A stretch of DNA of 64,000 bases. Origin: Liolophura sinensis. Lineage: Eukaryota > Mollusca > Polyplacophora > Chitonida > Chitonidae. The position numbers and the translations under genes are program-made. The notes beneath the pieces were generated by a model that had not been told where the DNA came from, made no database searches, and saw only the letters and a list, made by a program, of their open reading frames with translations. How positions within the stretch are numbered: position 1 is the first letter of the stretch; every line of letters starts with the position of its first letter. Where the stretch lies: positions 10,337,717 to 10,401,716 of the forward strand of contig NC_088305.1 in the NCBI RefSeq assembly GCF_032854445.1. Direction: 5' to 3'. Of the stretch, positions 3,201-62,700 are shown in pieces.

Positions 3201-6200
3201 GCAATCATTTCTTTTATGGCCATATAACTTTTATGGATACTTCTCACAAGATTTATATATATTATCAAGATTTGGAAATTTACAGAGCTGCGCTGGGATT
3301 TTTTAATTTGCACTACCTCTCTGGGGCCGATTCTCCGCCTTACCGTACCAGGTCCTTCACTGAATTTTGTTTGTCACTGGTAATATGTTACCAGTATTTT
3401 CCTTTATTTACGGAGGTCTGTGTGGCCCATAACAGACTAAAGTGAATAAATACTATAGTCTATTTCATTTAGCTAGTCGCCTGTACTTTGCTGTCTGTAA
3501 AATCTCGCCGACTCACTACCAAAATTCATTGACACATATTGTGTATGACTGATTTTACAGATAGCCAAATACAGGCGACTGGCTAAATGAAATAGACTAT
3601 AGGATGCTTGCACATGTATTTGGGTCTTTTTTGGAGTTTTACATTTAAAAGCCATTTTTAGGAAGTGACATTTTGTTTTAAATAATGGCATTGTGCTGAA
3701 TTAAGTTTATCATAATTGTTGTCTTTGTTCTTCTTATTTAATAGGTAGCATTTCCCACAAATAGTAACTCGGTCTTAAGCAGTGTAACCTTTCGTTAGTT
3801 TCTGCCTTTGCGATGACGTGTTGTCGACAATCGGGTACCGTAATAGATGTTCAAAAGTGTACTGATCTATGCGCCGAAACCGACATTCGCATACCAGTCG
3901 TCAACCAATAAGGACGTTCCAGATCAATAATCGCAAGGCCAATTCCCAAAATGACGTATAACACAAACCACTAAAGAACTATGAAAGTATAAAAACTACG
4001 AATTACATGCAAAGAGAAGTCCAGAATAAAGTGACATTTACTTTGTATTTGGATGAGACTGGTCTTAAGATCTAAGCCTGGCTTAACTTTACTACACTTT
4101 TGCAAATTTGTACCCAGATTCATTGCAAGAGAACTACGGTTAATTCAGCTTGCATTCTTTCTCGTCTTTGCGCGGGAAATGGTACCCCATTTGTTAACGC
4201 TCTTGTACTACCTGATACTTGGTGTATATGGGCTATCAAACTGAAATGAACAAACACTAATTACGAGGATGCATGTGCTTGGGATGTGCTTTCAGAACTG
4301 CTCTTACGCCCTCTGTGTGACTGTCCCCTGTCAGCTGAGGAGGTTAAAGCCGGGAGCAGAGGCTATCCTCACAGTGTTCGGTCGAATCTACGAGGATTCC
4401 ATCATTAACCTTCAGGTAATAATTCATTTTCTAATATGAAAATATTATAATGCTGAAAAGTAGAGGGGGTCGCCGTGGCTCAGTTGGTTAGCGCGCTAGC
4501 GCAGCGCAATGACCCAGGAGTCTCTCACCAATGCGGTCGCTGTGAGTTCAAGTCCAGCTCATGCTGGCTTCCTCGTACGTGGGAAGGTTTGGCAGCAACC
4601 CGCGGATGGTCGTGGGTTTCCCCCGGGCTGTGCCCGGAATCCACCCACCGAAATGCTGGCCGCCGTCGTATAAGTGAAATATTCTTGAGTATGGCGTAAA
4701 ACACCAATCAAATAAATAAATAGTAACTGGGAAGTAGAGATAATTAACCTCTGGGAGGAGGATCTCAGTTTTATACGAAAATTGGACTATGTTTCGAAAT
4801 TACTTCGAAACCCTCCTGGAAAACACATTAGATTACATCTTCACAATGCTGTTCTCCTGTGTAACAAAGACACTTCAGATAAGCTGTGATATAAAACACG
4901 ACAGTACAGCACGGAAAGTAAAATCAAAGCAATAACGACAGTATGCCAGTTGGCGAATGGTCACTCGTAACCGGTGAAATCCGGCTATGACAATGTCGTC
5001 GCTGCTCTGGGTTAACTCTCCATTCTGGACTCTTTTTATATTCTTGACTTTTCGTGTTTTGATTGTTGTTTTAAGCTAAAATCATAAAAACATCTTATTT
5101 TTCAAGTCGCCATCATATGACCAACATGGCTTTGAAGCAGACAGGAGATGTTAAACACCTGATTAGTAAGAGATCGTACATTGATTGATCTTTTGTCCAC
5201 AGGCAAACGGAATAATCAAGCTTCAGACGATTGGTGCTATTCAAATTGAGCAGGATGCAATCAGCTCTGAATCAAGCTTCGCACAGAAGACTGTGATAGT
5301 AAGTACACACTGATTCAGCCCTGAATCTAGCGTCCAACAGAAGACTGTGATAGTAAGTACACACTGAATGAACCCTGAATCTAGCTTTGCACAGAAGACT
5401 GTGATAGTAAGTACACATTGAATCGACTCTGAACCTAGCTTCGCACAGAAGACTGTGGTAGTAAGTACACACTGATTCAGCCCTCAATCTAGCTTCCAAC
5501 GGAAGACTGTGATAGTTACTACACACTGGATCTGGTTTCTCACAGAAGACTGTACTAGTGAGTGCACATTGAATCAACCCTCAATCTAGCTCCGAACAGA
5601 AGACTGTGGTAGTAAGTACACACTGGATCTAGCTTCTCACGGAAGACTGTGATAGTAATTACACACTGAATCAGCCCTGAATCTAGCTTCCAACAGAAGA
5701 CTCTGATAGTTACTACACACTGGATCTAGCTTCTCGCGGAAGACTGTAATAGTGAGTACACATTGAATCAACCCTCAATCTAGCTTCCAACAGAAGACTG
5801 TGGTAGTAAGTACACACTGGATCTAGCTTCTCACGGAAGACTGTGATAGTAAGTACACACTGAATCAGCCCTGAATCTAGCTTCCAACAGAAGACTCTGA
5901 TAGTTACTACACACTGGATCTAGCTTCTCGCGGAAGACTGTAATAGAGAGTACACATTGAATCAACCCTGAATCTACTTCCAACAGAAGGCTGTGGTAGT
6001 AAGTACACATTGAATCTTGTACGAAGCTTGGTTGAAGCTTCTCACGGGAGAGGTACATGTACTAGTAAGTACACACTGAAATAGTCCTGATTCTAGCTCC
6101 TACCTGAACACTCTGATTGTAATTACACACTGAATCAGCCCTGAATCTAGCTTCCAACTACAGACTTTCATAATAAGTACACACTCAAGACAGAAACACT

Positions 6201-7804
6201 CCTAACTGCACCTTCTCACAGAAGCGTTACAAGTATTAGTAAGTATACAATGAATCAGCCCTCAATCTAGCTTCTCACAGAATACTGTCATAGTAAGTAC
6301 ATACTGAGTAAACCCTGAATCCTAGCTGGACACAGACCCCTATTACAACTTCCGTTTTTCAGAATTCTGTGTATTTTAGGGTGTAAAGTCTTTTTTTGCT
6401 GCCAGTCTGCCGTTTTTTGGTGTACTGGTGTATGCTTGGTATCAAAATGATGGAAACTGTCTAAGCTTTGGGCAGGTATGAGTTTTATTGATGAAAGTTT
6501 GAAATTCTGGGCGAGAGGACACAGGGAGACAGGTGGTGATGAGGCTGGGAGTGACGCCCCTTTGGCGTTGCTAGGCACCCCTCCCAGCTGCCGGCATAGA
6601 AAGGTCCAGATTTTGACAGTCAACCTATGTCAAGATTTTTATGGCTTTCTCACAGGCTGGGCCAGGTATGCACCAAAGGTTACTGGCAACGGAATATTTG
6701 GGACTGAGCCACAGCGCTAAACGTTAACATTGTCGCTTATGGAAAACTAATGGGGGTCTCCGGCCAGCTACTCCCAGCAGACCTTCATTTTGTTTGTGTT
6801 GCGTGCATTTAAGTTATACAATTGTTAAGTAACTTTTGATATCACTGAAAACACTGTTTGTCTTTTGCCTCCAGGTGACCACTGAAATATATCCGCAAGT
6901 TCTCGGGAGATCTCGTCTGAACACGTGGATTCTGGTGGTGTGTATAGCGGGTGGAGTGATAGTGCTAATGTTTGTCTACCTTGGATTATGGAAGGTCAGT
7001 GAAAACATAGTGCATTTCATTTGTGGAGTAACCGAAGTGTTAAGACATCAAGTGACATTTCAGACACACCTGTGCTCTATAAAGAGGAAAGCATTGTGAA
7101 CAGGCGGAACAATCGCCCCCCCTCCCACTCCACACCGCGAGGAGTATGGGTGGGCGGCGTGTTAGAGTTGTTAGCATGTTAGCGAGGCAAGGTTGCGTAG
7201 AAATCCCTCACCAATGTGGTGGCTGTGACTTTCAAGTCCAGCGCTTACTGATTTCCTCTTAGTCTGTGGCCGTACGTGAATTTGGAAGCAACCTGCAGAT
7301 GATGGTTTTCTGCCGGTTTCCTCCCATCATCGTGAAAGTGAAATATTTGTAATACACAAATCAAATAAATAAATAAATGAACTGGGCTGTTAGTTACTAG
7401 GCCGATGGAGGCGGCTTACTTTACGCAGTTTGTTCCAAAATTATACTACAGATCATCCATTTCCTTCTTTTGTGTGTTAACAGATCGGCTTTTTCCGGAG
7501 AGCTAAACAAGAAGAGCTTCAAAGACTGATCAGCCGAACGGACTCGACGCCTTCCGACAGCGGTCGAGGCACCAACTCGAACTCCACCGATAACGAGACG
7601 GGAATACCCGAAGACGTAAGCTCGGCAGCCGGTCACACAGATTCGGAACCACCTGAATCTCCCCGATATCCTGATGACGTTGACTTTGACACGCTCTCGC
7701 GGTCTACGTCACGCGAAACGAAAAACTTTATCTTTGATCGGCCAGACAGAGCCTTTTCAAACTTGACTTATGACGAAGCGACGAGATTCGGCACTAGGGT
7801 TTAG
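73..7804 (+). CDS. Integrin alpha subunit gene A, 3' part (alpha4/alpha9-like), six coding exons
   Basis: Integrin alpha chains pair with beta chains as membrane receptors for matrix or cell-surface ligands. Only the C-terminal 339 residues are in the window. Coding exons are 73-277, 1266-1424, 4296-4415, 5203-5298, 6875-6994 and 7484-7804; all are bounded by AG and GT and their phases agree (the first exon enters with one base, all later junctions are phase 0). They encode the end of the thigh/calf region, the calf-2 three-cysteine motif, one transmembrane helix and a GFFRR membrane-proximal tail. The exon layout matches exons 17-22 of gene B one for one (205/202, 159/120, 120/120, 96/96, 120/114, 321/324 nt). 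The 5' exons must lie upstream of position 1. Identity as an integrin alpha is near certain; the alpha4/alpha9-like assignment rests on the paralogue B. Confidence 0.93.
975..1127 (-). mobile_element. SINE A, 3' part
   Basis: Reverse copy of the tRNA-derived SINE described at 62584. It begins at the TAAA tail and ends in the GGCCGGAGAGG.AGCCAGCATG block; the tRNA-like head is missing. Confidence 0.85.
1146..1230 (+). repeat. Left arm of long inverted repeat around a gene A exon
   Basis: This arm (containing CTTACGTACCTGTACGGAAT and ACATATATGACAAATAAAGT) reappears inverted at 2214-2296 with only a few mismatches over about 80 bp. Exon 1266-1424 lies between the arms. Confidence 0.9.
1266..1424 (+). 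CDS. Gene A exon, calf-2 linker with basic cleavage-like site
   Basis: Acceptor caacag, donor gtgagt, phase 0 on both sides, 53 residues. It begins IVPANGNPRD and ends DLYV. It carries a basic stretch SERRRKPRD at the place where many integrin alpha chains are cut by a furin-type convertase into heavy and light chains. An NAT glycosylation sequon is present. The exon lies inside a pair of long inverted repeats (about 1146-1230 and 2214-2296). Confidence 0.9.
1573..1700 (+). repeat. Dispersed repeat family D, diverged copy
   Basis: Blocks TATCAGCCGTCAACTAAAAT and TCAAGGCCAATTTCCAAAAC, ending near CGAAAGTATATAAATG. It lies in a gene A intron. Confidence 0.65.
2214..2296 (-). repeat. Right arm of long inverted repeat around a gene A exon
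   Basis: Reverse complement of 1146-1230, with conserved blocks ATTCCGTACAGGTACGTAAT and ACTTGTCATATATGTAGCTA on the plus strand. It could be a foldback element with the exon inside it, or two independent insertions of one repeat. Confidence 0.9.
3454..3601. mobile_element. MITE-like foldback element, 148 bp, in a gene A intron
   Basis: The ends are inverted copies of each other over about 51 bp with four mismatches, starting TATAGTCTATTTCATTTAGC and ending with its complement. TA at both ends suits a Tc1/mariner-type target. Internal sequence is short and non-coding. Confidence 0.85.
3885..4040 (+). repeat. Dispersed repeat family D
   Basis: Blocks CAGTCGTCAACCAATAAGGA, CGCAAGGCCAATTCCCAAAA and GAACTATGAAAGTATAAAAA. 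Related copies are at 1573-1700 and 41685-41870. All three end in a TATA-like AAAGTATATA or AAAGTATAAA segment. Origin unknown. Confidence 0.7.
4296..4415 (+). CDS. Gene A exon, calf-2 three-cysteine motif
   Basis: Acceptor tttcag, donor gtaata, 120 nt, phase 0. The translation starts NCSYALCVTVPCQLRRLKPG, the conserved C-x4-C-x4-C element of calf-2 found in all three genes here ([12 protein letters not shown] in B, NCSSQECVVVTC in C), and ends YEDSIINLQ. It is too short to stand out as an open reading frame and was found by homology to the paralogues. Confidence 0.93.
4465..4722 (+). mobile_element. SINE A, full length, gene A intron
   Basis: The tRNA-like head has an A box TGGCTCAGTTGG and a B box near GAGTTCAAGTCC, then a core with GTGGGTTTCCCCCGGGCTGT and a 3' end CGTAAAACACCAATCAAATA plus TAAA repeats. 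AAGTAGAG on both sides (4458-4465 and 4732-4739) may be the target duplication. Confidence 0.93.
5203..5298 (+). CDS. Gene A exon, calf-2 strands; seeds a tandem array
   Basis: Acceptor tccacag, donor gtaagt, 96 nt (same length as gene B exon 20), phase 0. It reads ANGIIKLQTIGAIQIEQ at the start and FAQKTVI at the end. The last 25 or so bases plus the donor are repeated about twenty times downstream (5299-6310). Confidence 0.92.
5270..6310 (+). repeat. Tandem array built from exon end plus splice donor (gene A)
   Basis: About twenty units of roughly 55 bp follow exon 5203-5298 without a gap. Each unit repeats the exon's last bases (..AGAAGACTGTGATA) joined to GTAAGTACACACTG and a short spacer. 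Around half keep an exact GTAAGT; others carry GTGAGT, GTAATT or GTTACT. The first unit is the real exon end. See findings. Confidence 0.95.
6875..6994 (+). CDS. Gene A exon, juxtamembrane and transmembrane helix
   Basis: Acceptor cctccag, donor gtcagt, 120 nt, phase 0. It starts VTTEIYPQVLG and continues into a hydrophobic span WILVVCIAGGVIVLMFVYLG ending LWK, the typical integrin alpha membrane helix. The next exon supplies GFFRR. Confidence 0.95.
7165..7379 (+). mobile_element. SINE A, diverged copy
   Basis: Core and tail of SINE A, with CTCACCAATGTGGTGGCTGT and a CAAATCAAATAAATAAATAA end. The head is degraded. Confidence 0.8.
7484..7804 (+). CDS. Gene A last exon, long cytoplasmic tail
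   Basis: Acceptor aacag, stop TAG at 7802-7804, 106 residues. It begins IGFFRRAKQEELQ, the conserved alpha-tail motif that contacts the beta tail. The rest is Ser/Thr/Asp rich, contains NLTYDEATRF and ends GTRV, which fits a class I PDZ ligand (T at -2, V at 0). Integrin alpha tails are usually 15-60 residues, so this is long. Gene B has a tail of nearly the same length and ending. Confidence 0.95.
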   Translation: MGFFRRAKQEELQRLISRTDSTPSDSGRGTNSNSTDNETGIPEDVSSAAGHTDSEPPESPRYPDDVDFDTLSRSTSRETKNFIFDRPDRAFSNLTYDEATRFGTRV

Positions 7805-10458
7805 GTGAAAACATTTGCAAGATTTACTGAGCTTCTTGGCACTGCCTGATTTAGAAATTTACAGTTCTTCTTTGTCGGTAAAAATTGAAAAAAAGTCCTG
7901 AATGACTGGGTCTAGCTTCATTAAATGGGATCCATATACTCATGCGAAAGTTTTATTCTTCCTTGTCCTGTGATATTTATCCACCAGGAGTACAGTTTGG
8001 CCTTGAATTTTACGTTAAAACTTGAATGAACTGTATTACGCCAAAACGAGATTGCATTCAGAGATTTATTTATGCGGCTCTTCAGCATTTATTTATGCGG
8101 CTCTACATTATTTTGGCCATTTCATCCAGCTTTTCACATTCTATCTTTCACTCTGACGTGGCATTACTGAAGCACCAGTCGAACGATTAGCGGCACTAAA
8201 ATGACGTCATACGCCCCACTTTGGACTTCTGCTGGTATCCCATTGTAATGCAAAAGCAGAAAGTTCATTCACAGGGGGAGGCAACCCTGGATGCGTTGCT
8301 TGTGAAGAAGAAGGTGAATATTGCGATGACCTTGCTGCGAACTGAAATTTACATGATGCTGATTGAGCGGAGTCACATCAGTAGCGTTTCACTGTGACAC
8401 CCGTCGGAGTTAAACGTGACACGTTGAGACAACTGTGTGGTTTAAATGTGCCCTAAATTTTGTGCTATAGCAATGACAAGAATCTCAGACTGTTGATCAC
8501 ATTCAACTTTGTTCATAGTAACTGTATGACATTTAACTTCCGTGTCTATAGATTTTTCATTTTTACAACAACAAAAAAAACAGCTCATGTGAAGACCTTG
8601 CAGTTGGAACTCCGTTACCTTTCTCAGTGTATTTATTCCTTTAATCTGAAATTAGTATTAACACAAAAATCTACATGAGTGCATGTAAATATATGTATAT
8701 ATTGGACAATATTGTATTCATTGTTTTGTAACTGCAAAAAATTATATCCTTCATTCATTATGTTATAATTCGTCTTTTATACCCGTTTATATAGATCGTG
8801 ATACCGTACGAGCTGTTAAATACACAACTAAAATAAATGAATTGGATATATTGTACAGCAAAATGTTAAATTTAATTTATTCATTATTCATCAGATAAAT
8901 GAATTTAATTGAGTACCAGAACATTATATGACCATTTTGTTTCTACCAACAAAGAAAAGTTATAAAGACGCAGAGCATACAGTGTTTTTGTACTGTTTAT
9001 AATCGATTTTGGGGAATGCAAACTTCACACCAGTATAAATGTAAATAGTTTCCATTCGTTTGTGCTTACTAATAACATAGTGCTTATTTCTTAAGTTTTC
9101 CTTATTCAAGTTCAATTAATCTGTGTACAAATGTATACTTAGCAAGCAGGTTCTTCGGAAATCCGAACTGGCATTTGGAGAATCTAGGTAGTCTAGGTAG
9201 TATAGTTCAACACAAATTTGACTGCTCTTGCTCACTTACGCATGATTTTTCGATAGTCAAGGGTTTAATTTTACTCTTGGGATAGTTGGTTTTAGAACAT
9301 TTCTGAAATCAATTAAACCTGAGGTAGGTCGTGTTTCCTGACGTTAGACATACAATCTGTCTGACTGCTGGTGCAAAATCACTCGTTATAAATTGGCAAA
9401 AGCGCCTAAACTGTCTAGGCCAGGCCTGCGTAAATCCCGAGTCAGTTAAATGTGGGCATGTTTCTATTTGGATAATATTAAAAAAAATATATTTACGGTC
9501 CTATAAGTTAACTAATTTAATGTAAATGATTTTAGTCTTCAAGTTTAATTACTCCAATTAAAGCGGTGCAATTTTACAGTAAAATAAACAGGTAGTTTGA
9601 TATACAGAGCATTTTTTCCCTATAGACCAACAGCTTCATTCTGACTGTAAATTTACATGATGTAAAGTTACAGCTGAAATGAGTGTACGTAAGCCGATGG
9701 TACGTATTTTTGACGTAAAATGTGACAAAATATATTGTATATATGGATAGATTGTATACACTACACCTGGTAGTCATTCGCAAGCTCTACTCATAGCGTT
9801 CAAAATAAAGCTTTAACTTTTCATCCTTGGACTGATTTGTTGTATCAGTCGTGCTTGCACATGCTGTATTCAATACTTTGCTCCTAATGCAATGTGAATA
9901 GTTTGTACGTGTACGAGTCACGTGGTCTGCACGTTTCGTGTATTTATCACTGCCATGTTTGTCCTCTAAAGATATCTAAATAAACCCATTTTGAAATAAC
10001 AACGCAGACTTATGTTATCTGTCCATAAGCTTAATTAAAGAAGCAATGTGTGAATAAGGGTCGGAATGCCCATGGTTTATCAGTCAGTGGGTCTATCACC
10101 CAATACACTGGTTTCGAAATATACATGTACAACGTTAGGACAACAGGGGGACAGCCGTTTACGACGTGGCATTGTCACTTTATGGCACGGTAGGGTCACT
10201 CTCCCATTTTTAACATCAGGTGGTGTATAGAATATAGGAAATTAATAAGATAAAATTGATAACCTTCCTAATTATCTTCTTGGGTGGGTTTGGACGTCAA
10301 ATATTGCAAAATAATGATAGCCTGTATGCAGATTTGCGGCGAAAGCTCAGTCATATATTTATAATAGAACTTGTTTCAAGTGACAAAATCTTACAGGCCT
10401 TATTATTAGGGACATTAGATCATGTATTTCAAAGCACGTACAGTAGACCCAGAGTTAG

Positions 10459-35305: not shown

Positions 35306-35336
<31 letters not shown>

Positions 35337-38300: not shown

Positions 38301-39291
38301 GATTTTTGAAAACGGCGTGAAATGACAGAACTAATGTTAAACACCTTGTGAAATGGCCGAAATGGTACAAAAAATATTTGTGAAATTATCGAAATAATGG
38401 CATCCTAGCACGAGCAATTTTTTTTTATACTGTCAGACTTCATCTCATAAATATTTAAAGTTTGCCGACAAATGCAAGTTCTCATGTAGACTTCAGTTAT
38501 ACTAGTGGCGCTAAATTATACGGTAATCATTTCATCAGTCAGTCTACTTTTTATTTCAGACCTGGCAGTGGGCGCCCCTATGTCAGATCACGTGGTCACT
38601 TTACGGACTGTACCCGTGGCTTCGGTGTCAGCTTCGCTTGACATTGGACATAACGTCATCAGTCTGCAACCCAGCTGTCGTTTTCGTCAGAGGATTTACG
38701 TATGCACTGACGTCACTCTAACGTTCGCTTATACAGGAAAACAATGTCCTCCAACATTGGGTGAGTGGCATGGCAATCCTGTTGTAATGGGACGCCATTT
38801 CCCGCGCATTGGCGACACGGCCCCGTGCGGGATAGACCATTGTTCTCTCGTAAATACAAGCGCACTGTTACCAGTTTACCCACAAATTGTTATCGCAAAG
38901 GCGGGTATAAACAATAGATTACATAGATTTTGCGCGAATTAGTTTTTTTAGGTAAATGGATTTAATGTTCACAAAGACTTCGCCCGGGTGTGAATACAGA
39001 GGAAAGAGTGATGTGACGTGAGAAAAGCTTGCCACTGGCAGTATGCGCCATAAAACCATCCTTTTAATTCAAACATGCGAATGTATTTCATGATAAATTT
39101 TAAATGATTCAAAGTCTAAAAATAAAAAAAAATCAACAGATATAGGTTCCAGCAATATACTTACTTCACTTTTATTTAGTTATAGCTAAAATCAGTGTGC
39201 GCAAATAAATGGTAAGATTGCGTAAACCTACGGTAGTGTTGCTTGTATTTGTACAGTGAAGTCTTGCAGATCAGTTGTGATTACAGTTCTG

Positions 39292-39340
<49 letters not shown>

Positions 39341-47979: not shown

Positions 47980-48064
<85 letters not shown>

Positions 48065-48534
48065 GAGTGTGTACATATGCATCTCTTTATATTATAAACC
48101 ACTGTACATTCCAATCTGTTACTAAATTTGTTCAGGTATTTGGTCGAATTTGAACTGTTACCAGTAAAACCTTATGTTTATGCATATATGTTTTGTACCA
48201 TGATTTACAGGTTGGTTTTTTCAAGAGGAAAAAGCGGGACGATCTTAAACAGCTTTTAAGGGAGGAAAACTCCAATGTTGAACTGGACTCGGTGAGCTCC
48301 CAAGGCCAATCCCCCACGGGACTGGGCGAGGTACCTCCCCCAGCACCACCTGGAGCTGTGGGGGGAGCTGATTATATCGTTCCTGTTTCAAAAAATACCT
48401 GCCCGGATGACCCATATCTACACCCAGTTAGTGTTGCCCTGCCTCCTTCTGGGCGAACATCAAACAATTACGTCCGGTTATCTTCGGAGGATAAAGCTGA
48501 AGACATGGACGCATTCATAGGAACCCGGATGTGA
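12893..48534 (+). CDS. Integrin alpha subunit gene B, complete, 22 coding exons (alpha4/alpha9-like)
   Basis: Assembled from splice sites and homology: 12893-13062, 20432-20553, 21195-21281, 21803-21949, 23004-23068, 24289-24346, 25355-25441, 27076-27161, 27696-27752, 34280-34420, 36090-36192, 37492-37674, 38560-38760, 39342-39505, 41263-41388, 42982-43475, 44100-44301, 44888-45007, 45750-45869, 46458-46553, 47329-47442, 48211-48534. Total 3267 nt, 1088 residues plus stop, all phases consistent. Order: signal peptide (about 1-22), seven FG-GAP blades (to about residue 440), no I domain, thigh, calf-1, calf-2, membrane helix (about 958-981), GFFKRKK at about 983, 107-residue last exon. Cation loops DVNNDSFDE (about 306), DLNNDDFND (about 367) and DTDENGYPD (about 428) are intact. 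Blade motifs match the vertebrate alpha4/alpha9 group best, from memory of that family. Most introns carry repeats or mobile elements. Confidence 0.93.
13438..13674 (-). mobile_element. SINE A, nearly complete, gene B intron 1
   Basis: Reverse copy from the TAAA tail (TTTATTTATTTATTTGATTG) to a degraded tRNA-like head (CTCGGCCACGGAGG). Confidence 0.88.
14360..15890 (+). pseudogene. Decayed Penelope-like reverse transcriptase, gene B intron 1
   Basis: Several frames give pieces of one reverse transcriptase: [17 protein letters not shown] (about 14660-14720), the 230-residue frame at 14790-15482 with [20 protein letters not shown] and [20 protein letters not shown], then about 15700 [20 protein letters not shown]. 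These are the conserved blocks of Penelope-like (and related) elements. The catalytic Y-x-D-D position reads FGNDEL and the frame is broken by stops and shifts, so the copy is dead. Assignment to the Penelope group is from memory of the motifs. Confidence 0.65.
16806..17804. mobile_element. Candidate solo LTR inside a TA microsatellite
   Basis: A 999-bp non-coding block starts TGTTACGG and ends CATAACA (5-bp TGTTA/TAACA inverted ends) and is flanked on both sides by TA repeats (16758-16805 and 17805-17863), as expected if an LTR element inserted into one microsatellite and recombined to a solo LTR. There is no second LTR or coding region in the window to confirm it. Confidence 0.5.
19255..20320. 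repeat. CCATCCA-type minisatellite in gene B intron 1
   Basis: About 1 kb of CCATCCA-rich sequence organised into higher-order units such as CATTCACACCCATCCATCCA plus CCTATTCAGTCATCCACCCA. It is open in several frames and ends about 110 bp before exon 2. Confidence 0.93.
20432..20553 (+). CDS. Gene B exon 2, propeller blade 1
   Basis: Acceptor ttttgcag, donor gtaagt. Reads [20 protein letters not shown] then [12 protein letters not shown]: the GAP motif and cysteine pair of blade 1. It exits with one base. The long CCATCCA-type minisatellite ends about 110 bp upstream. Confidence 0.94.
20742..20888. mobile_element. MITE-like element, 147 bp, gene B intron 2
   Basis: Terminal inverted repeats ACCAGGGCCCGTATTTATCA and TGGTAAATACGGTCCCTGGT (18 of 20 complementary). 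No open frame. It sits between exons 2 and 3. Confidence 0.8.
21195..21281 (+). CDS. Gene B exon 3, blade 1/2 strand
   Basis: Acceptor ggcag. Reads [20 protein letters not shown] and continues EISPRITV. Two donors overlap: gtgagt at 21278 and gtagga at 21282. Only the second leaves the single base needed by exon 4 and gives ..RITVTCAPLWKN, like the alpha4 sequence around VTC..RWKN. The gtgagt site would shift the frame. The exon is short and was found by homology. Confidence 0.82.
21470..21832 (+). repeat. Tandem duplication covering the exon 4 acceptor (gene B)
   Basis: Two imperfect copies (about 21470-21645 and 21643-21832) share CAAGTAATA, GGCC(A/G)AGGGGTCAAA, GGAAAATCAA and end with a T-rich acceptor followed by TGCGCACCATTATGGAA. 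The second copy supplies the real exon 4 start; the first ends after 18 bases of exon-like sequence and reads into AAGTAA. Confidence 0.88.
21803..21949 (+). CDS. Gene B exon 4, blade 2
   Basis: Acceptor tttttttgtcag, donor gtaagt. Starts (A/T)[11 protein letters not shown], the CAP-W-N motif of blade 2, followed by [14 protein letters not shown]. The exon exits with one base, completed by exon 5. A tandem duplicate of its acceptor and first 18 or so bases lies just upstream (21600-21645). A SINE-like repeat starts within about 10 bp of the donor. Confidence 0.88.
21957..22300 (+). mobile_element. SINE-like family B, full copy, gene B intron 4
   Basis: Starts GAGTGCTTGGGGTTTAACGT, contains TTGCAGGACGGATTTCCACC, GACGACTTACCGAAGGCAAG and ATACTGATACGGGTCAACCA, and ends with a degraded tRNA-like stretch. 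Similar repeats are common in molluscan genomes as far as I recall. Confidence 0.75.
22420..22570 (+). repeat. Dispersed repeat family C, copy 2
   Basis: Blocks AATAAAACCCTAACTTAGTT, GTGACCATTTGCCAGTTATC and ACTGTCGTCACTGCTGTCGG. It lies in gene B intron 4. Confidence 0.8.
23004..23068 (+). CDS. Gene B exon 5, blade 2/3; seeds a tandem array
   Basis: Acceptor tttattacag, donor gtaggt, 65 nt. Reads [20 protein letters not shown] then K, matching the QGGFS(I/V)-type motif of integrin alpha chains. The last 27 bases and the donor are amplified downstream with a period near 52 bp. Confidence 0.9.
23042..23690 (+). repeat. Tandem array built from exon 5 end plus splice donor (gene B)
   Basis: About eleven units of roughly 52 bp. 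Unit core is GGAATTCAACGTTCAT..CCAAAG followed by GTAAGTAACGTTTGTTCT. The core is a diverged copy of the last 27 exon bases (GGCGGCTTCAGTATTCAT..). Units become more diverged away from the exon and end in a G-rich tract near 23550 and two looser copies. Confidence 0.93.
24289..24346 (+). CDS. Gene B exon 6, blade 3
   Basis: Acceptor ttttccag, donor gtgagg, 58 nt. Reads [20 protein letters not shown], the GAPG.Y.W.G motif conserved in integrin alpha blade 3. Phase 0 in, phase 1 out. The absence of any long insertion here shows that the chain has no I domain. Confidence 0.93.
25355..25441 (+). CDS. Gene B exon 7, blade 3
   Basis: Acceptor tgtttcag, donor gtaaat, 87 nt. Reads [20 protein letters not shown] then [10 protein letters not shown], fitting the G.(L/I).(V/Y) strand after the W.G motif and the start of blade 4. 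Confidence 0.9.
25831..26014 (-). mobile_element. SINE A, 3' part, gene B intron 7
   Basis: Reverse copy with tail, ACGCCGTACTCAAGAATATT block and core; head missing. Confidence 0.85.
26186..26292 (-). mobile_element. SINE A fragment, gene B intron 7
   Basis: Reverse fragment with CAACATTATGGTGGGAGGAA and GGGCCGAGCCC blocks. Confidence 0.75.
27076..27161 (+). CDS. Gene B exon 8, blade 4
   Basis: Acceptor gtttacag, donor gtacga, 86 nt. Reads [20 protein letters not shown] then PNWNNTGK. The S-GHF.S..... V-G-(S/A)P pattern is the blade 4 form of the alpha4/alpha9 group, which lacks a calcium loop here. Confidence 0.92.
27696..27752 (+). CDS. Gene B exon 9, blade 4/5; seeds a 30-bp array
   Basis: Acceptor atttcag, donor gtaaga, 57 nt, 19 residues: [19 protein letters not shown]. 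The next exon continues FGSYFG, so GEQ-FGSYFG reproduces the blade 5 entry of integrin alpha chains. The last 22 bases plus the donor form a 30-bp unit repeated about thirty times up to 28620. Confidence 0.9.
27731..28620 (+). repeat. 30-bp tandem array built from exon 9 end plus splice donor (gene B)
   Basis: Thirty units, nearly all exactly 30 bp, immediately after exon 9. Each is ACTTGAACATCAGGGCGAACAG joined to a donor-like GTAAGAGT, GTACAAGT or GTAAGAAT. Because 30 is a multiple of three, the array reads as ([10 protein letters not shown])n in the exon's frame in places, which creates long spurious open frames on both strands. Confidence 0.97.
28798..29063 (+). repeat. 5' LTR of the Gypsy-type element
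   Basis: Starts TGTGATATTG, ends AAAAGTATTACA; 257 of 266 positions equal the 3' LTR. Preceded by ATCTG. Confidence 0.96.
29094..30056 (+). pseudogene. gag-like region, broken
   Basis: Begins [20 protein letters not shown]. An in-frame stop (29286-29288) and a frameshift near 29850 interrupt it. Two nucleocapsid-type zinc knuckles are visible: [14 protein letters not shown] and [14 protein letters not shown] (C-x2-C-x4-H-x4-C). A capsid-like helical region precedes them. Confidence 0.88.
30057..30300 (+). pseudogene. Retroelement aspartic protease region, broken
   Basis: [12 protein letters not shown] carries the D-T-G active-site triad of retroviral-type proteases. A frameshift follows within about 60 bases, after which [20 protein letters not shown]-like sequence continues in another frame. 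Confidence 0.75.
30512..31774 (+). CDS. Reverse transcriptase-RNase H open frame of the Gypsy-type element
   Basis: A 420-residue open frame. RT blocks include [34 protein letters not shown] and the catalytic [10 protein letters not shown]. RNase H has [21 protein letters not shown] and VHSDHKPLE with the D, E and D residues. The start codon is only the first Met in the frame; pol would normally be read from an upstream frame that is broken here, so this is a remnant rather than a host gene. Confidence 0.92.
   Translation: MESMGVITAIDERTKWVSSMVAVAKKENTLRICIDPKDLNENIMQKHYQLPTLEDIIHKPTGAKYFSRLQSGHWQIQLHDESSKLTTFNSPFGRWAFTRLPFGLVSAQEIFQKKAHEALEGLDGVEVLVDDILLYAPTRELHDERLRELLQRCRDKNLHLNAAKMEIGVTETKFNGHTLTSEGLKPDPDKIKAIEQMPTPTSKKEMETVMGMIYYLTKFAPGLATATAPIREHLKEDVEWLWDCDKAFEQVKYIITRTPGPVLAYYDVTIQVDASESGLGAVILQEGKPVAYVSRALTPTQQNYARIEKEMLAIQFGCEKFHSYIYGKQVTVHSDHKPLEIIMRKPLASAPSRLQCMMLRLQLYDLNVVFRPRKEIPIADILSRNYKSGHDAHEDPTLEEDVHAVFERIPVTDQKLEKIK
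31790..32963 (+). pseudogene. Integrase region, broken
   Basis: An HHCC zinc-binding domain ([13 protein letters not shown].., RCSTC) is followed by catalytic-core pieces [10 protein letters not shown] and [12 protein letters not shown], then a C-terminal [17 protein letters not shown] module. Stops near 32150 and 32180 and a shift near 32395 separate the pieces. Confidence 0.85.
33512..33777 (+). repeat. 3' LTR of the Gypsy-type element
   Basis: Starts TGTTATATTT, ends AAAAGTATTACA and is followed by ATCTG, the target duplication. Confidence 0.96.
34280..34420 (+). CDS. Gene B exon 10, blade 5 with cation loop
   Basis: Acceptor gtgttgtag, donor gtaagc, 141 nt, phase 0. Starts [20 protein letters not shown] and continues [20 protein letters not shown]. 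The D-x-N-x-D-x-F-D calcium-binding loop and GAP motif are intact. Confidence 0.95.
34733..34979 (-). mobile_element. SINE A, full length, gene B intron 10
   Basis: Complete reverse copy ending in a tRNA-like head (GCGCTAATCAGCTGAGCCAT). It is flanked by a 44-bp imperfect direct repeat (34665-34708 and 34989-35032). Confidence 0.92.
35033..35130 (-). mobile_element. SINE A fragment, gene B intron 10
   Basis: Reverse core fragment (CGGCTGCCATTATTAAGGTG to CATTCCCACGTACG) without tail or head, directly after the second copy of the 44-bp repeat. Confidence 0.75.
35305..35462 (-). mobile_element. SINE A, 3' part, gene B intron 10
   Basis: Reverse copy with a long TTTA tail and core, head missing. 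Confidence 0.87.
36090..36192 (+). CDS. Gene B exon 11, blade 6 with cation loop
   Basis: Acceptor tatttcag, donor gtgagt, 103 nt. Contains [18 protein letters not shown] with the final Asp completed by exon 12. A loose repeat of about 24 bp starts within 30 bp of the donor. Confidence 0.95.
36205..37110. repeat. Loose tandem repeat in gene B intron 11
   Basis: Two blocks (about 36205-36560 and 36985-37110) of a degenerate 22-26 bp unit resembling AGCATTGGAAATCCTGCCTC. The first block starts within about 15 bp of the exon 11 donor. I see no clear copy of exon sequence in the unit. Confidence 0.75.
37172..37322 (+). mobile_element. SINE A, diverged copy, gene B intron 11
   Basis: ACTAATGCGGTCGCTGTGAT start, TGCGAATGGTCGTGTGTTTT core and a CAAATAAATCG end. 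Confidence 0.78.
37492..37674 (+). CDS. Gene B exon 12, blades 6/7 with cation loop
   Basis: Acceptor tgtttcag, donor gtaata, 183 nt. Reads [20 protein letters not shown], then [17 protein letters not shown] with the final Asp completed by exon 13 (blade 7 loop). The match to integrin alpha chains is direct (SQ.I.G, FG.S, D.D.NGY.D). Confidence 0.95.
38560..38760 (+). CDS. Gene B exon 13, end of propeller and start of thigh
   Basis: Acceptor tatttcag, donor gtgagt, 201 nt. Reads [20 protein letters not shown], the standard end of blade 7 leading into the thigh domain, then a cysteine-containing [15 protein letters not shown] strand as in alpha4 (VCIDLTLCFSYKGK-like). Confidence 0.94.
39293..39338. 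repeat. TA microsatellite abutting the exon 14 acceptor
   Basis: About 23 TA dinucleotides ending 3 bp before the AG of gene B exon 14 (exon starts 39342). Confidence 0.96.
39342..39505 (+). CDS. Gene B exon 14, thigh domain
   Basis: Donor gtaaaa, 164 nt. Reads [20 protein letters not shown] at the start and [11 protein letters not shown] at the end. The acceptor (tttag) sits directly after a TA-dinucleotide microsatellite of about 45 bp, so it has almost no ordinary polypyrimidine tract. Confidence 0.9.
39728..39906 (+). mobile_element. Two nested SINE A 3' fragments, gene B intron 14
   Basis: One truncated tail (CGCCGTCGTGTAAATGAAAT) followed by a longer one ending CAATCAAATAAATAAATAAA. 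Confidence 0.82.
40330..40730. repeat. 20-bp minisatellite in gene B intron 14
   Basis: About twenty units of ACTCACTGAGGTCACACCTT with variants. It lies some 800 bp from the nearest exon and shows no link to a splice site. Confidence 0.85.
41012..41162 (+). repeat. Dispersed repeat family C, copy 3
   Basis: Blocks AATAAAACCCTAACTGAGGT, GTGACCATCTGACAAGCAGC and TTATCGTCGCTGCTCTGGTT, gene B intron 14, about 100 bp before exon 15. Confidence 0.8.
41263..41388 (+). CDS. Gene B exon 15, thigh domain
   Basis: Acceptor gctgacag, donor gttcgt, 126 nt, phase 0. Reads [20 protein letters not shown] then [20 protein letters not shown]. Position, phase and the DV.FEL/ Y.P.L pattern suit the thigh domain; individual family residues are less diagnostic than elsewhere. 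Confidence 0.85.
41395..41578 (+). mobile_element. SINE A, 3' part, gene B intron 15
   Basis: Begins seven bases after the exon 15 donor. Core GTCTGCCAGCAACCTACGGA, 3' end with a long TAAA tail. Confidence 0.82.
41685..41870 (+). repeat. Dispersed repeat family D, second long copy
   Basis: Blocks CCAGCCGTCAAGAAGTATGG, CAAATTTCCAAAACGTCGTC and GGAAAAGTATATATAGTACG, followed by CATGCAAAGAGAAG as in the copy at 3885. Confidence 0.7.
42780..42935 (-). mobile_element. SINE-like family B fragment, gene B intron 15
   Basis: Reverse copy of the middle of family B (CTTTCGGTAAGTCGTTTCAG, GCAGCACTAGATAAAAAAAA, TTAAGTGCGACGTGAAAACC). It ends about 45 bp before exon 16. Confidence 0.75.
42982..43475 (+). 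CDS. Gene B exon 16, thigh end and calf-1
   Basis: Acceptor tcgacag, donor gtaagt, 494 nt, the longest exon. Reads [20 protein letters not shown] near the start (the F...CG.D..C..DL hallmark of integrin calf-1) and [11 protein letters not shown] in the middle. It ends with two bases of a codon completed by exon 17. The locally GC-rich base composition sets it apart from the flanking introns. Confidence 0.96.
43853..43978 (+). mobile_element. SINE A, 3' part, gene B intron 16
   Basis: GAGCCTGCGGATGGTCGTGA to CAAATCAAATAAATAAATTA. Confidence 0.88.
44100..44301 (+). CDS. Gene B exon 17, calf
   Basis: Acceptor cgtacag, donor gtaagc, 202 nt (1 + 67 codons). Starts [11 protein letters not shown] and includes [20 protein letters not shown]. 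Same structure as gene A 73-277 and gene C 60523-60712. Confidence 0.95.
44888..45007 (+). CDS. Gene B exon 18, calf-2 linker without a basic site
   Basis: Acceptor ggtccag, donor gtgagt, 120 nt. Reads [20 protein letters not shown] and ends in an acidic stretch SSSDDVEYL. Unlike genes A and C there is no dibasic or furin-like site, so this chain may not be cleaved. Confidence 0.93.
45450..45601 (+). mobile_element. Tandem pair of SINE A 3' ends, gene B intron 18
   Basis: Two consecutive copies of the last 70 or so bases of SINE A (both contain TTTCCTCCCACCATAATGCT), without tails. Confidence 0.85.
45750..45869 (+). CDS. Gene B exon 19, calf-2 three-cysteine motif, GC donor
   Basis: Acceptor ttactcag. 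Reads [20 protein letters not shown] and ends STFWNYG. The equivalent exons in A and C are both exactly 120 nt and phase 0. Here 120 nt ends at 45869 and the intron starts gcgagt, a GC-AG type donor. The nearby gtacgt at 45851 would break the frame with exon 20. Confidence 0.85.
46188..46380 (+). repeat. Degenerate dispersed repeat, gene B intron 19
   Basis: Starts CCCCGCCAAGGAGGTTAAAC and ends near AATGATCCGGAATTAG. This resembles an old repeat with a CCAAGGAGGTTA start found in many marine invertebrate genomes, as I recall; naming is tentative. Confidence 0.5.
46458..46553 (+). CDS. Gene B exon 20, calf-2
   Basis: Acceptor tttacag, donor gtacgt, 96 nt, phase 0, same length as gene A 5203-5298. 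Reads [20 protein letters not shown] then [12 protein letters not shown]. Confidence 0.92.
47094..47268 (-). mobile_element. SINE A-related copy, gene B intron 20
   Basis: Reverse copy with a tail, TTTCACTTATACAATGTTGG and a tRNA-like head (TAACCACTCTGCCACGGAGG); the core is deleted. Confidence 0.75.
47329..47442 (+). CDS. Gene B exon 21, transmembrane helix
   Basis: Acceptor tttattag, donor gtagga, 114 nt, phase 0. Starts [16 protein letters not shown] and continues with the helix [20 protein letters not shown] ending WK. A minisatellite begins within about 30 bp of the donor. Confidence 0.95.
47470..47965. repeat. Minisatellite in gene B intron 21
   Basis: Repeats of a T-rich unit with TTGATCCCTCGTTTCTG, TTTTTGCATTATCTTCATCC and ATATTCTGATCTCTCTTT segments, period about 75 bp in the regular part (47700-47930) and shorter, looser copies before it. 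It begins about 30 bp after the exon 21 donor and runs into a TA microsatellite. Confidence 0.85.
47981..48059. repeat. TA microsatellite in gene B intron 21
   Basis: About 39 uninterrupted AT dinucleotides, about 150 bp before exon 22. Confidence 0.97.
48211..48534 (+). CDS. Gene B exon 22, long cytoplasmic tail
   Basis: Acceptor gatttacag, stop TGA at 48532-48534, 107 residues. Starts [20 protein letters not shown], the membrane-proximal alpha tail motif, then a Pro/Gly-rich segment ([12 protein letters not shown]) and a C-terminal part with YVRL (a YxxPhi-type sorting sequence) ending FIGTRM. The GTR(V/M) end is shared with gene A and resembles a PDZ ligand. Confidence 0.95.
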   Translation, partial: VGFFKRKKRDDLKQLLREENSNVELDSVSSQGQSPTGLGEVPPPAPPGAVGGADYIVPVSKNTCPDDPYLHPVSVALPPSGRTSNNYVRLSSEDKAEDMDAFIGTRM

Positions 48535-53890: not shown

Positions 53891-54079
53891 ATGACGTCAT
53901 AATTATTCAAGAAGGAGTCAATTTTGGCACTGAATGTGAGTGACATTACAAATAAGTGAGCCTAATTAAATGATTAAAGTATGTCAGACTTGGTGGCTGG
54001 AAACATCAATAAGCTGTAGACTTGGCAATAGGATACATCATTGTACAGTCATGTTGCATTATAATTTGACAATAATCAA

Positions 54080-56751: not shown

Positions 56752-59700
56752 CTGAAACATAGCAAAATATCCTTAGCTTAGAGTTGTTTCATTTGTCTCC
56801 CTGAGACATAAAATGTCAGGCATGAAATTCATGTAAGGCGAATTCACGCTTAAGAGCGAGATTTGCATGTTATCAGATAGACTTGTGTTCACGTGAGAGT
56901 CCTAGTATTATGAAGAATTGTTGCGTAGTGGGATTTAGTATAGCATTAATTGTAGTCCACATGGGATGCAAATATATTTAGATATACAAATCATATGGAA
57001 GATTAAAGCATAGAGAGTAAACGAATATAGCAACCACGACAGTGTCATACATGTGAATGTTTAGATTTCCTAAATGCTTATTGGAACGCCATGCGCAGCA
57101 AACGCTTTCAACCATTAACAATACACTCAAAAAAGGCCTAAGCAGAAATAATGCGTATTGCAGAGACTTAATTCAGTCTCCGTCACTGAAAACTACCACT
57201 AAGCCGACAATGACAACAGTATGATGCAATCTGCCAACATATTATCGATCGTGGACAGTGTAGACATCATGACGCTGTTCTGGTCATGTGACAGTGGATA
57301 GACGTCGTGTTCATTGAAAAGTTATCTAACATAAATAACAGCTAAGTGGGCCAGCTATCCATACCCTCTGTTGTGCGGAGATTTTCAGTGACGGAGAATG
57401 ACTTTTGAGAACTGCGCACGCGTAGACTCTTGGGACCGTGGTGTCTTGGCTTTTTTTATACGTAACATAAATTAACTATGGGAATGTTCAATGACACTTT
57501 AATGAAGAAGGTGTGCCACAGGTTGGTTGCTAACCTTTGCAAGTATAAGAAACATCAGAAGTAGGAGAAGCAGACACCCTACGGCAGCCACGATGATGAT
57601 CCACAGGGCCAATTCCTCCTTGGGTGGTGCAGACGGATGGAACACCGTGCTGATCTGCAGTCAAATGATGCTCATTTCATAAGGTTGCGAAAGAATTTAT
57701 TATGTAGCGAGTGACAAATTGCTTTAGCAAGATAGTCATGCGCTGAAAGTACTTATCAAGTGTTTTTGAACTTCAAGATAAGCTCGTCAGAGCAGAGTAA
57801 ATATAAAAACAATGCCCTCAAAATGGGAAGACAGTGTCATAGCATAATACGACACGTAATAAGGGCGTTTAAAACGGAGGTCTTAACTGGGGAAAATATT
57901 CTGGTGTACGAAATACTTCTGTCGTCATTTCATTGCTATTGTAACTACATTGCTTTCGTCATTTCATTGCTGTCGTAATTACATTGCTGTCGTAATATCT
58001 CTGATGTCGTCATATGATTGGTGTCGTCATGTCATTGCTGTCGTCATTTTCTTGCTGCCGTTCCATTACTGCCGCCATGCATTGCTGTCGTTGTTTCACT
58101 GCTATATTTATTTAATTGCTGTCATCATTTCTTAGCTTAATCCGTTCTTGCTTAAAACTCACCGTGGTTTCTAGCCTGTGATTATCCAGCAGTTTGGGGA
58201 AGCCGGGTTTTGTTTTTCTCTGGATAGATATGGATGTCTCCAGACGAATTACCGCACTCTCCTGTCGTGTGGAAACAATAACGATATCAAAATACAGGTC
58301 GAGTCCGTTCCAATACGTACATAAAAAAGTGAAAAATCGTAAGAAATCGAACGTGCGACCTCACTAGTAGCGGTACTCCATAATTAAACAAAAGAAGAGG
58401 TAAACGTCTGAATTAACATATCCTATTTTTCTTTCTCCATCTCATTTTTTTTCTCTTTTTAATATTTATTTTATCGGATTCGAGTGTGCGACATCATTAA
58501 TGAAAGACTATGAAAGCGCCATCGCTTTAATCGACTGAGCCACAGAGGTATCATGACGTATACGTAAATCGAGAATATACGACACAGTGTTCAAAGCACA
58601 TGAGTTTATACTTCGCGATCTTTACCTGTCTTTTGTCCAAGGCTGCCTGATTCACGCGGAGAGATACATTGACTTGAACGGTCTGACCAACCAAAAGCTG
58701 TCCTAGTTGACACGTGACCACGACGCACTCCTGCGAACTGCAGTTCTGTTGGATGCCAGGAAATGAAATAGGCAAGTTATTACAAGGAATGTAGAGTAAT
58801 GACGCTAATAATTGTGTCATACATTAAAGCCGTTACAACTAACGGATAGAAAGCAATGAGAATCTTTGGAGTTACTGAAATCGCCACTCCTATAAGAATT
58901 CAAAACGAGAAGCTTAAAAACGTACCAAAATTACTTGACGCTTTTCCTCCGTGACTGTTTTGTTTTGAGTCAGAGAACGTCGTTGTGGTTCGAGGTACGG
59001 TAAAGTGAGGTTTTCGGTTACTTCCCTTGACATCTCAGTTATGTTTTCCATTGTTAAAGTTGGAGTGGTGGACATTATTACATCTTCAGATTGAACAATG
59101 TCACCAGATGACAAAAGGTTCGAGTCACTAACAGCACAGCTCACTGGTTCGCTCCCAACTGACGCCTCATTCCACATGAAAACCTTTCATAAGAATAAAA
59201 CACATCGTAATTTACTGATTTTGGCCAGTCGGTCTGAGGACATTGGCGACATATATAATCAATACGGTGTAATAAAAACATTTGACTGTATTCCTTCCGT
59301 TAGGAAAAGCTTCAAAAAAAATTTAAAGAAAAAATACATAAGCAAATGTACAAATTTTTAATGTTTATTTTTCTACTGGTACATGTATTACTTTACTTCA
59401 ATACATTCTTCCCTTATATTGACTCATAAAGTAACTCTACAGTGCTTAGGTGGAAATAATTTCAATTTCTTCCATGTCTCTATGACGTCAATGTTAACTT
59501 CTTTAATTCTTGATAACAAAAAATGGCCAAAAAAAAGCCCCCAAAAACAAAGAAACAAACGAAAACAAAAGATAGCATGTGTCAATTCAGTCGACATTTG
59601 ACTGTAACGTAGGTCTGTTAATTTTGGTGTGCCTCTTCTAAAATAGATCACACTTTCGAATCCATTGTGGTTTTAAGTCAGCTGATTTTTCAGGTATCTG

Positions 59701-62700
59701 GCAAAGGTCTATTTTTGCACTCAAGGCTCTTATGTTTCCTTTACCCATAATCCTGACTCGCGTCATATGAGTGAAAATTCACTGAACATGACGTTAAAAA
59801 CAAACCAGTTAATCAATCAATTACTCACATCACTCATCTAAGCTCTGTTCCTATCAGCAAAGGTTGCCGAATGTGTTAAAAAGCTGTAGTGACGCACATC
59901 AGAACAATAATGCAACAATGAATGAGTGAGTGAGTGAGTGAGTGAGTGAGTGCTTGGGGGTTGAACGTCGTACTGAACAATTTGTAACACTGAGAAACTG
60001 TTTACCAGTAAACTGGAGTAAATGATCATAAACGAGGTCGCGTGTTCAATTTTGGTTAATGGTGGCTAGCCTACCTTTATTAGACAGTAGCATACCTTTA
60101 TTTTGAGTTAATAGTAGCGTAACCGGATTTTGGTCTAATGGTAGCAAACCTCTACTTTTGTTTTATTGGTAGCCTACCCCAGTTTAGGTTAGTGGTGGCT
60201 AGCGTTCATCTTTTTGACAGTAGCTTGCCTCTGTTTTGGCTTAATAATAGCGTGACTCCATTTTGGGTTAATGATAGCGTACCTCTATTTTGGGGTCAGT
60301 GGTAGCGTACTTCAGTTTTGATTAATGGTGGCTAGCGTAGCTCTATTTGACAGTGGTGTACCTCAGATTTGGTTAATGGTATAGCGCACAACTATTTTGG
60401 TTAATGGTAGCGTACTTCTATTTGAAGAGAACGTAGTTCAGTTTTGTCTGGCAATAGCGCGTCTCTGTTTTGATTGAAGGTAATGTACCACTAATGTGGT
60501 TTACGATATTGCGTTCATGTACCTCTATTTCGGATGGATCTAAGTAAGAAGAAGTGGCTTCCCGCTTCTTGAAGGGAATGGAAATGGTGATCTCTGCCCC
60601 TGGGAGTAAACTGGGTCCGGTGTTCTGCAGAGACAGCTTTTGCGTCATATTAAGCAATGGTAGCTCCTCTTCTTCAATTGGATTGTACGTTAACTGCTCG
60701 GGAAAAGACTGACTGCCAAAGAAAAATAAAACAGCTACATGTATATTTTAACGATTTCAGTTGCTTAAGATTGCTCTTGAAATTTGAATAATCATTGTCG
60801 TATGTTTGAACCGTCTAGGAGTTTTGGCGCCAAAAGAAACGACAGATATTTGGTCACAAGCTTTGACGCGCGTGCGTCCCAAAAGCGTGCCTTACGTTTT
60901 AAAATAAGAACACCTTCTCCAACGGCTACGACGACAACAACAGCAGCGACAGCAGGACCGTCGTCCCAGAACGTGTCCGCAGCAATTGATGTTGTAAACT
61001 TCAAACGTATTATATACATATCTCAGCAATTTTTAACAAGCACACGTACCATATAAAGACGTATCCACTTGGTATTTTCTCTGTTTCTCTATACTACAAT
61101 TCCTCAAAAGGATTTCATTCACAAAATTTCAACGCGCTCATTGTTATCGTAATATTAACGTAAAAAAGCATCAAGACTGTTCTTAGTGCTGCTATTCACA
61201 AAGGTTGCACTTCATATGCAATCTGGTGAAATCATTTACTAACAGTGAACACACTGAGGTATTCCAATGGGTACAATCTGTATCCTCTTTGGGTAGGCCT
61301 ATAGCTGTTTTCATAGGAACGGCACAACATGCAAAATTTACCATGTAAAATTAATCATTTCATTTACCAGACGGTATATTAATAATGTTTAAGCAATAAA
61401 TAATTCCCATATTGCCGAGGCGGTGAAAGAAATGATCGACCTCCTTTGGATTTGAAGGAGACAACAGATAGTCTTAGAGGTACATCTTACTTTGACAAAC
61501 TTGTAAATATCTGTATAAGGATGACAAAGGTCTCCTCTCAAACCATTACAAAAAGCGATGTTTTCAATCTTGAAATTGTAAATTATCCATTATTTGGATA
61601 TATACCAGACGGTCCGGTAAATATTTAGGCTGGTAGCATTGTAGAATTAGAGTGCCAAGGACATTCAATCAAACGCCCCCGCTCTGCTTTATGATTGTGT
61701 CTAATTCCTCTTATCCCGGGGCTAGGTGACGTATATTGAAGTAGATCGTCACTCTGGATATAGGAACAGTTGCCATCAAAGCACAACTGAGATTCATATA
61801 TTATTATATGTACAAGTATGCAGTAAAAACAGTGTAAATTAAAACAAGAGGTAGATGTCGGTGAAATCAACCAGGTGCCATGACTTAATTGTGGTGCATT
61901 ACGTTTGAAAGCTAAAGCTTCTTTAAAAAAAAAAACAATTAGCTCTGTTAATTACCCTGGTGTTTCTTTGTAAAATATATCGAGGTGATTTGACTGGTAT
62001 GGTGTTAAGCAGACGGTCGGACAGGGTAAATATTTATCTATTTATTTATTTGATTGGTGTTTTAGCCGTATTCAAGAATATTTCAGTTATACGACGGCGG
62101 CCAGCATTATGGTGGGTGGAAACCGGGCACAGCCCGGGGAAAACCCACGACCATCCGCAGGTTGCTGGCAGACCTTCCCACTTACGGCTGGAGAGGAAGC
62201 CAGCATGAGCTAGACTTGAACTCACAGCGACCGCATTGGTGAGAGGCTCCTGGGTCATTACGCTGCGCTAGCTCGCTAACCGACTGAGCCACGGAGGCCC
62301 CAGCAGCGTAAATAAGTTGGAGCATTGCTCAATATGAATTTCGCTAGTGCTGTTGTTGTTGTAAAAGTCTTTGTAGCACACATTGTTCTGCTTCACCTAT
62401 GTATTTATACCCACAACCAGGATAGGTAAGTTGTTATACTACATAGCTTGGAGTTTCCACAAAAACTTTGCTTTTGTTAGGCACAAATGAAGAAAAAGGT
62501 AGAGACCTGTACATTATAATAAATTTAACATTCTTAGTTACAAGTCGCTGAAATTTAGAGATGGACTTTCTAATTATGTATGAGGGGCCTCCCTGGCTCA
62601 GTAGGTTAGCGTGCTAGCGCAGCGTAATGACCCAGGAGCCTCTCACCAATGCGGCCGCTGTGAGTTCAAGTCCAGCTCATGCTGGCTTCCTCTCCAGCCG

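Follow-up and report, generated by a model that had tools for sequence, protein, structure and literature searches.

Minisatellites that span exon-intron boundaries in a cluster of integrin-alpha-like genes of the chiton Liolophura sinensis

The window analysed here is a stretch of 64,000 nucleotides from the chiton Liolophura sinensis (assembly GCF_032854445.1, contig NC_088305.1, positions 10,337,717 to 10,401,716 of the forward strand). It contains three paralogous integrin-alpha-like genes, A, B and C, in which minisatellites whose unit joins the end of an exon to its splice donor begin at 4 of the 30 modelled donors. These boundary arrays are real at three donors (exons A4, B3 and B7) and probably at the fourth (C2). 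A sequence-only reading of the window had described independent arrays at several exons of the three genes, lying on the intron side and leaving the coding frame untouched, and this description was borne out. The genes, the exons concerned and their arrays, the latter delimited with Tandem Repeats Finder (TRF), are as follows:

73..7805, plus strand: gene A, integrin-alpha-like, C-terminal part, 6 modelled exons
20432..48534, plus strand: gene B, integrin alpha-4-like, 20 modelled exons, 5' end not sought
57535..63928, minus strand: gene C, integrin-alpha-like, C-terminal part, 6 modelled exons, extending beyond the window
5203..5298, plus strand: exon A4 of gene A, last ~40 bases inside the repeat unit, end matching paralogous exons B19 and C5
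5259..6327, plus strand: array at the A4 donor (TRF), ~54-bp unit, higher-order periods 97/194, GT retained in 10 of 11 tiled decoys
23004..23068, plus strand: exon B3 of gene B, last ~14 bases inside the repeat unit
23055..23471, plus strand: array at the B3 donor (TRF), 52-bp unit, higher-order periods 104/156, decaying on to about 23650
27696..27752, plus strand: exon B7 of gene B, last ~23 bases inside the repeat unit
27730..28610, plus strand: array at the B7 donor (TRF), 30-bp unit, 29 copies, GT retained in 27 of 28 decoys
60523..60712, minus strand: exon C2 of gene C, whose donor lies where those of its paralogs A1 and B16 do
60050..60530, minus strand: degenerate array after the C2 donor (TRF to 60423), ~27-bp units, ~133-bp higher order

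The 32 exons were modelled from open frames, splice scores, reading phase and paralog similarity, and the final exon ends include the B14 end at 43475, the donor of exon C1 at 63752, the B18 start at 45750 and the B8 acceptor at 34280. The best PDB match of gene B is integrin alpha-4 (E=1.6e-66), and the alignment crosses the B7/B8 join ungapped and the B3/B4 join with a one-residue gap. Paralog comparison also backs the donor positions, for exons A4/B19/C5 and A1/B16/C2 end at corresponding places. The donor shuffle, random-intron-position and array-placement tests were run on the exon list that preceded the final revision of three ends, a revision which left the counts of 4 in 30 donors and 2 in 31 acceptors unchanged and raised the exon-interior positions from 420 to 444.

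For the junction test, the 30 bases spanning each donor were matched against the 700 intron bases that follow, and the score was compared with those of 200 dinucleotide shuffles; the pass threshold was 25. The terminal exons A6 and B21 (which have no donor), the acceptor of A1 (too little upstream sequence) and exons beyond the window were set aside, and the acceptor of exon C1 was included in the counts with just 72 upstream bases. The scores of A4 (56), B3 (27), B7 (52) and C2 (25) all exceeded 200 of 200 shuffles (null means 14-17), and at every one of the remaining 26 donors 4 or more of the 200 shuffles equalled or bettered the score. Against foreign donors the margin was narrow at B3 (27 versus 24) and C2 (25 versus 20). 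The sequence-only reading had taken the unit to be the exon's own 3' end plus the donor in all four cases, which the exonic-only test (last 16 exon bases) confirms beyond shuffled exon ends for A4 and B7 (both score 32, reached by none of 1000) and B3 (score 21, reached by 2 of 1000). At C2 the exonic share is not secure, because its score of 17 was reached by 34 of 1000 shuffled ends and the foreign exon end A3 scores 20 there. Because of these results we regard three donors as secure and C2 as leaning on the joint junction match; AAATAGAG/GTAC (slash at the junction) is present in some of its units, and the exon link is probable, not secure. The units measure 54 bp (A4), 52 bp (B3), 30 bp (B7) and roughly 27 bp (C2), and within arrays they have diverged from one another.

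Each array repeats the donor along the intron. The "tens of decoy donors" claimed earlier are found only in sum, since decoys scoring at least 2.5 number 7 at A4, 9 at B3, 19 at B7 and 3 at C2. Some decoys of B3 (AAG/GTAAGT, 8.5) outscore the true donor (AAG/GTAGGT, 6.0), and the decoys that lie ahead of the first in-frame stop are few (0/7 at A4, 1/9 at B3, 2/19 at B7, 0/3 at C2); the choice of the outermost donor should therefore matter. Splice signals are retained in many, not all, units, with GT kept in 27/28 tiled decoys at B7, 5/7 in another array and 10/11 at A4. The donor 9-mer of the decoys is not conserved above the rest of the unit (rank 21/22, 21/44 and 28/46 in three arrays), and the decoys look tolerated rather than actively kept.

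The pattern had been described as one of donors only, which overlooked the acceptors. At the same threshold of 25, boundary-spanning duplications occur at 2 of the 31 acceptors in the window, those of B2 and B8:

21533..21646, plus strand: first of two copies of the B2 acceptor boundary, comprising the end of the intron and the start of the exon, the second lying ~178-190 bp downstream
21803..21949, plus strand: exon B2 of gene B, reading phase in agreement with B1 and B3, outside the integrin alpha-4 alignment
34076..34211, plus strand: degenerate upstream copy of the B8 acceptor boundary, aligning to 34203-34325, junction score 26
34280..34420, plus strand: exon B8 of gene B, FG-GAP (Pfam, 4.9e-9)

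The B2 copy scores 37 (0/200 shuffles) and aligns to 21723-21824; the real B2 acceptor is probably the downstream, last one. Exon B2 itself we take, by eye, to be integrin-like. Just outside the window (L049:4034-5985, or ~67.3-69.3 kb when counted from the first letter of the window), an array of 40 copies of a 48-bp unit, composed of intron end and exon start, lies at one of the acceptors of gene C. This unit equals 16 codons and the frame is open through long stretches; inner acceptors could therefore add in-frame repeats.

Placement within the window was studied on 12 arrays found by TRF (period at least 12, at least 2.5 copies), with extents set by hand. That every array starts at a donor holds for the four described above and not in general, because 8 of the 12 touch no exon. 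Overlap with any exon (4 arrays versus 3.3 expected) is no more frequent than chance (P=0.43). Random intron positions passed the downstream test in 137 of 993 cases and the upstream test in 158 of 993; outside the six boundary arrays the figures were 43 and 47 of 838. The boundary arrays are thus beyond chance when compared with shuffled introns but not when compared with other intron positions. Among exon-interior positions none of 444 passed, and no array was found inside the modelled exons. Several further repeats were considered and set aside. The array at 54050-54803, with the donor-like GGTAAGAC, has no flanking exon that we could see and was not counted; it lies between inverted repeats (53604-53777 and 55623-55796, ~2 kb apart), possibly of a mobile element. 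The array at 40345-40723 follows an open frame (40243-40321) judged to be a chance frame and not an exon, the array at 57919-58131, 31 bp past a donor, and that at 47605-47926, 163 bp past one, show no exon bases, and a 25-bp, 2.6-copy repeat that ends 20 bp ahead of the B5 acceptor likewise has none.

Other features were recorded in the window. Domains of a Ty3/gypsy-like retroelement (RT, RNase H, H2C2, integrase) occupy 30581-32373 in the intron that separates exons B7 and B8, with the donor array of B7 on one side and the acceptor duplication of B8 on the other. A SINE-like element is present in many copies and both orientations (934-1130, 4495-4780, 62000-62285, 62600-62860 and others); a text search of the literature for it returned nothing. 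Exon B18 apparently uses a GC donor (GGG/GCGAGT) at 45869, where its paralogs A3 and C4 have GT. Whole-frame scans in which stop codons were read as residues gave no PDB match, and their sole Pfam hits were to the retroelement and to a single FG-GAP repeat. Neither Rfam, at its gathering threshold, nor a tRNA scan returned a match.

Outside the window, minisatellites (period at least 12, at least 2.5 copies) are abundant, with 20 in a small sample of 98 kb made of nine chosen 10-kb stretches and 8 kb beside the window, or ~1 per 5 kb. The strongest donor in any consensus unit of this sample scores 5.3 (none reaches 6), and two of the 12 window arrays lie above 6. We also searched the whole assembly (609,464,459 bases in 632 contigs, of which contig C1 has 96,433,062 bases and C11, which carries the window, 32,819,725) for the same word occurring three times at a spacing of 23-53. 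The donor words were AGGTAAGT and AGGTGAGT and the controls were these words reversed, TGAATGGA and TGAGTGGA, together with TAGGATGA and its reverse. Raw matches numbered 551 for AGGTAAGT, 1188 for AGGTGAGT, 395 for TGAATGGA, 418 for TGAGTGGA, 492 for TAGGATGA and 418 for its reverse. Since one long array contributes many raw matches, the listed places were clustered into distinct arrays, with starts partly copied by hand; the array counts that follow hold among the matches listed. On contig C1, AGGTAAGT gave 16 arrays in 93.4 Mb, TGAATGGA 17 in 90.4 Mb, TGAGTGGA 16 in 94.3 Mb and TAGGATGA 7 in 96.4 Mb (counted by eye), which places the rate of AGGTAAGT at 0.9 times that of its reverse and 1.2 times that of the three controls pooled. 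For the first 10.45 Mb, AGGTGAGT gave 13 arrays versus 5 for TGAGTGGA (P=0.10), and AGGTAAGT and TGAATGGA 7 each; pooled over 10.46 Mb, donor words gave 20 and control words 12 (P=0.22). Scaled by matches per array, donor words come to 0.145 and 0.253 arrays per Mb and controls to 0.11, 0.11 and 0.10. Single copies in the examined sequence (4 of AGGTAAGT, 4 of AGGTGAGT, 8 of TGAATGGA, 5 of TAGGATGA) were too few to decide. The excess of donor-word arrays is therefore 0.9- to 2.8-fold, varying with word and measure; strong donor-specific seeding across the genome is not supported, and a modest junction bias may exist. By a rough reckoning, if the 13% per donor seen in the window held throughout, the observed number of donor-word arrays would fall short by several hundred. 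The first 10.5 Mb of contig C1, ~1/9 of its length, holds 7/16 of its listed AGGTAAGT arrays, 7/17 for TGAATGGA, 5/16 for TGAGTGGA and 2/7 for TAGGATGA.

Sixteen donor-word arrays were taken from contig C1, and three of them abut exons supported by database matches, namely those of a Core-2/I-branching enzyme (1.5e-6), a GH31 glycosidase (6.2e-13) and the RNA polymerase III subunit RPC1 (5.9e-8), with 39, 28 and 32 exonic bases, respectively, in the repeat unit. Because these genes are unrelated, boundary arrays are not special to integrins. Three further arrays (L042, L044 and L045) end coding-looking open frames, with 9, 35 and 31 exonic bases and no significant database match; the exon at L042 is presumably DERA-like and that at L044 presumably Sec7/ARFGEF-like, although database searches gave no significant match. 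A weak polycystin-like match was obtained at L037 (E 0.039).

The sequence-only reading knew of no named process for such arrays, and the "mirages" of amphioxus fit. PMC3087553 and PMC3902484 give this name to boundary minisatellites of Adh3, the globins BflGb6 and BflGb9, TnC and PGBD5, which affect both 5' and 3' boundaries, carry splice signals in many but not all units, leave regular splicing undisturbed and are unstable in length between alleles or cells. Like the mirages, the chiton unit spans the exon-intron boundary (securely at A4, B3 and B7, probably at C2), donors and acceptors are both affected and GT is retained in most units. Unlike them, the chiton arrays belong to a mollusc, occur several in one gene cluster, reach about 40 copies and were set against genome-wide control words; RT-PCR and length instability were reported in amphioxus, whereas the chiton arrays are known from the sequence of one assembly. 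A one-locus human parallel is the variable number tandem repeat (VNTR) of ABCA7 intron 18, which also runs from the donor into the intron; according to PMC5954066, its 25-bp unit opens with the two bases of the canonical donor of exon 18, and one unit is retained, through a donor one unit in, in about 2% of transcripts. That unit starts at the GT, unlike those of A4, B3 and B7, which hold about 40, 14 and 23 exonic bases. The feature is real, of a known kind and in a new lineage: no boundary array in molluscs turned up in the literature searched, whose coverage left out most subscription journals, and the accessible text of two other amphioxus papers (PMC2206037, PMC2632668) names no boundary arrays, the word "mirage", looked for in PMC2632668 alone, occurring 0 times.

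We consider it likely that the chiton arrays are boundary-spanning minisatellites of the mirage kind, born blindly with respect to junctions, confined to the intron by selection on the exon and spliced at the outermost site. Tandem duplication and unequal exchange would generate minisatellites throughout the genome, and an array whose first duplicated segment chanced to lie across an exon-intron junction would carry a piece of exon and a splice site. It would survive only with its outermost site in use (the first donor or the last acceptor) and the protein unchanged; purifying selection on the exon would halt growth on that side, leaving expansion into the intron, with the mirror image at acceptors. 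Inner donors would be tolerated decoys, whose use would mostly introduce a stop codon. A process specific to donors is not needed, and removal of arrays elsewhere, as proposed earlier, does not agree with their abundance away from exons in the window and in the 98-kb sample; since arrays are absent from exons, removal from exons alone can yield the one-sided look. Several observations weigh against this reading: 4 of the 12 window arrays lie at a donor edge, where random placement would put 0.22-0.28 (P 5e-5 to 2.5e-4 with the earlier exon list; choosing the window for its boundary arrays inflates this P, but a local hot spot at the integrin cluster is possible), the raw ratio of donor to reversed word is 1.4 for AGGTAAGT and 2.8 for AGGTGAGT, and for 10 of the 16 arrays fetched from contig C1 no link to an exon could be made. 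True donors may be a source of the raw excess, for which the splice-score weights would give ~1.5-fold. The placement (P about 1e-4) and the AGGTGAGT counts, both raw and as listed arrays, would also favour an expansion-prone donor or junction region, seeded preferentially, for instance because of a recombinogenic GTRAGT core or of structures linked to transcription; we hold this to be unlikely, given that acceptors show arrays too, that AGGTAAGT arrays are no more numerous than those of two controls over most of contig C1 and that the pooled difference between donor and control words has P=0.22.

A function is less likely still. Extra donors might recruit U1 or tune splicing or expression through array length, as with the ABCA7 VNTR, whose length goes with more skipping of exon 19 and with reduced expression (PMC5954066), and several arrays do lie within one integrin cluster; the decoy 9-mers, however, show no more conservation than the remainder of the unit, and 1/28, 2/7 and 1/11 decoys have lost their GT. 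We would give equally little weight to the combined proposal that minisatellites are seeded at junctions, donors above all, at ~2 times the rate of other sequence, that the integrin cluster is one of the hot spots, and that the rapidly mutating length of the arrays adjusts the splicing efficiency of surface receptors, as in ABCA7. It is very improbable that the arrays are new introns, whether formed when AGGT-type proto-splice sites were duplicated in tandem or derived from dispersed introner-like elements. The authors of the amphioxus globin study suggest that mirages could give rise to new introns, and the chiton arrays share tandem duplication with splice signals with the Rogers model of intron gain (both in PMC3087553, the latter as cited there). 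Unlike in that model, existing introns were enlarged at A4 and C2, whose introns lie at positions common to three paralogs (A4/B19/C5 and A1/B16/C2), and no new intron was seen; the 29-base B7 unit pattern, the one unit searched by exact match, occurs once in 609 Mb. Assembly artefact or chance resemblance is scarcely credible: tandem arrays are error-prone in assemblies and the exonic match at C2 is within reach of shuffles, but the assembly is HiFi-based (PMC11068029), the units are mutually diverged, A4 and B7 lie far beyond shuffles and the same structures occur at unrelated genes.

Together, these results place boundary minisatellites, previously described in lancelets and at a single human locus, in a mollusc as well, and suggest that they are not rare there. 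The chiton genome offers a natural test of how the spliceosome chooses among repeated, sometimes stronger donors placed tens of bases apart, and its arrays could also be used to distinguish neutral debris from a change of expression such as that reported for the ABCA7 array.

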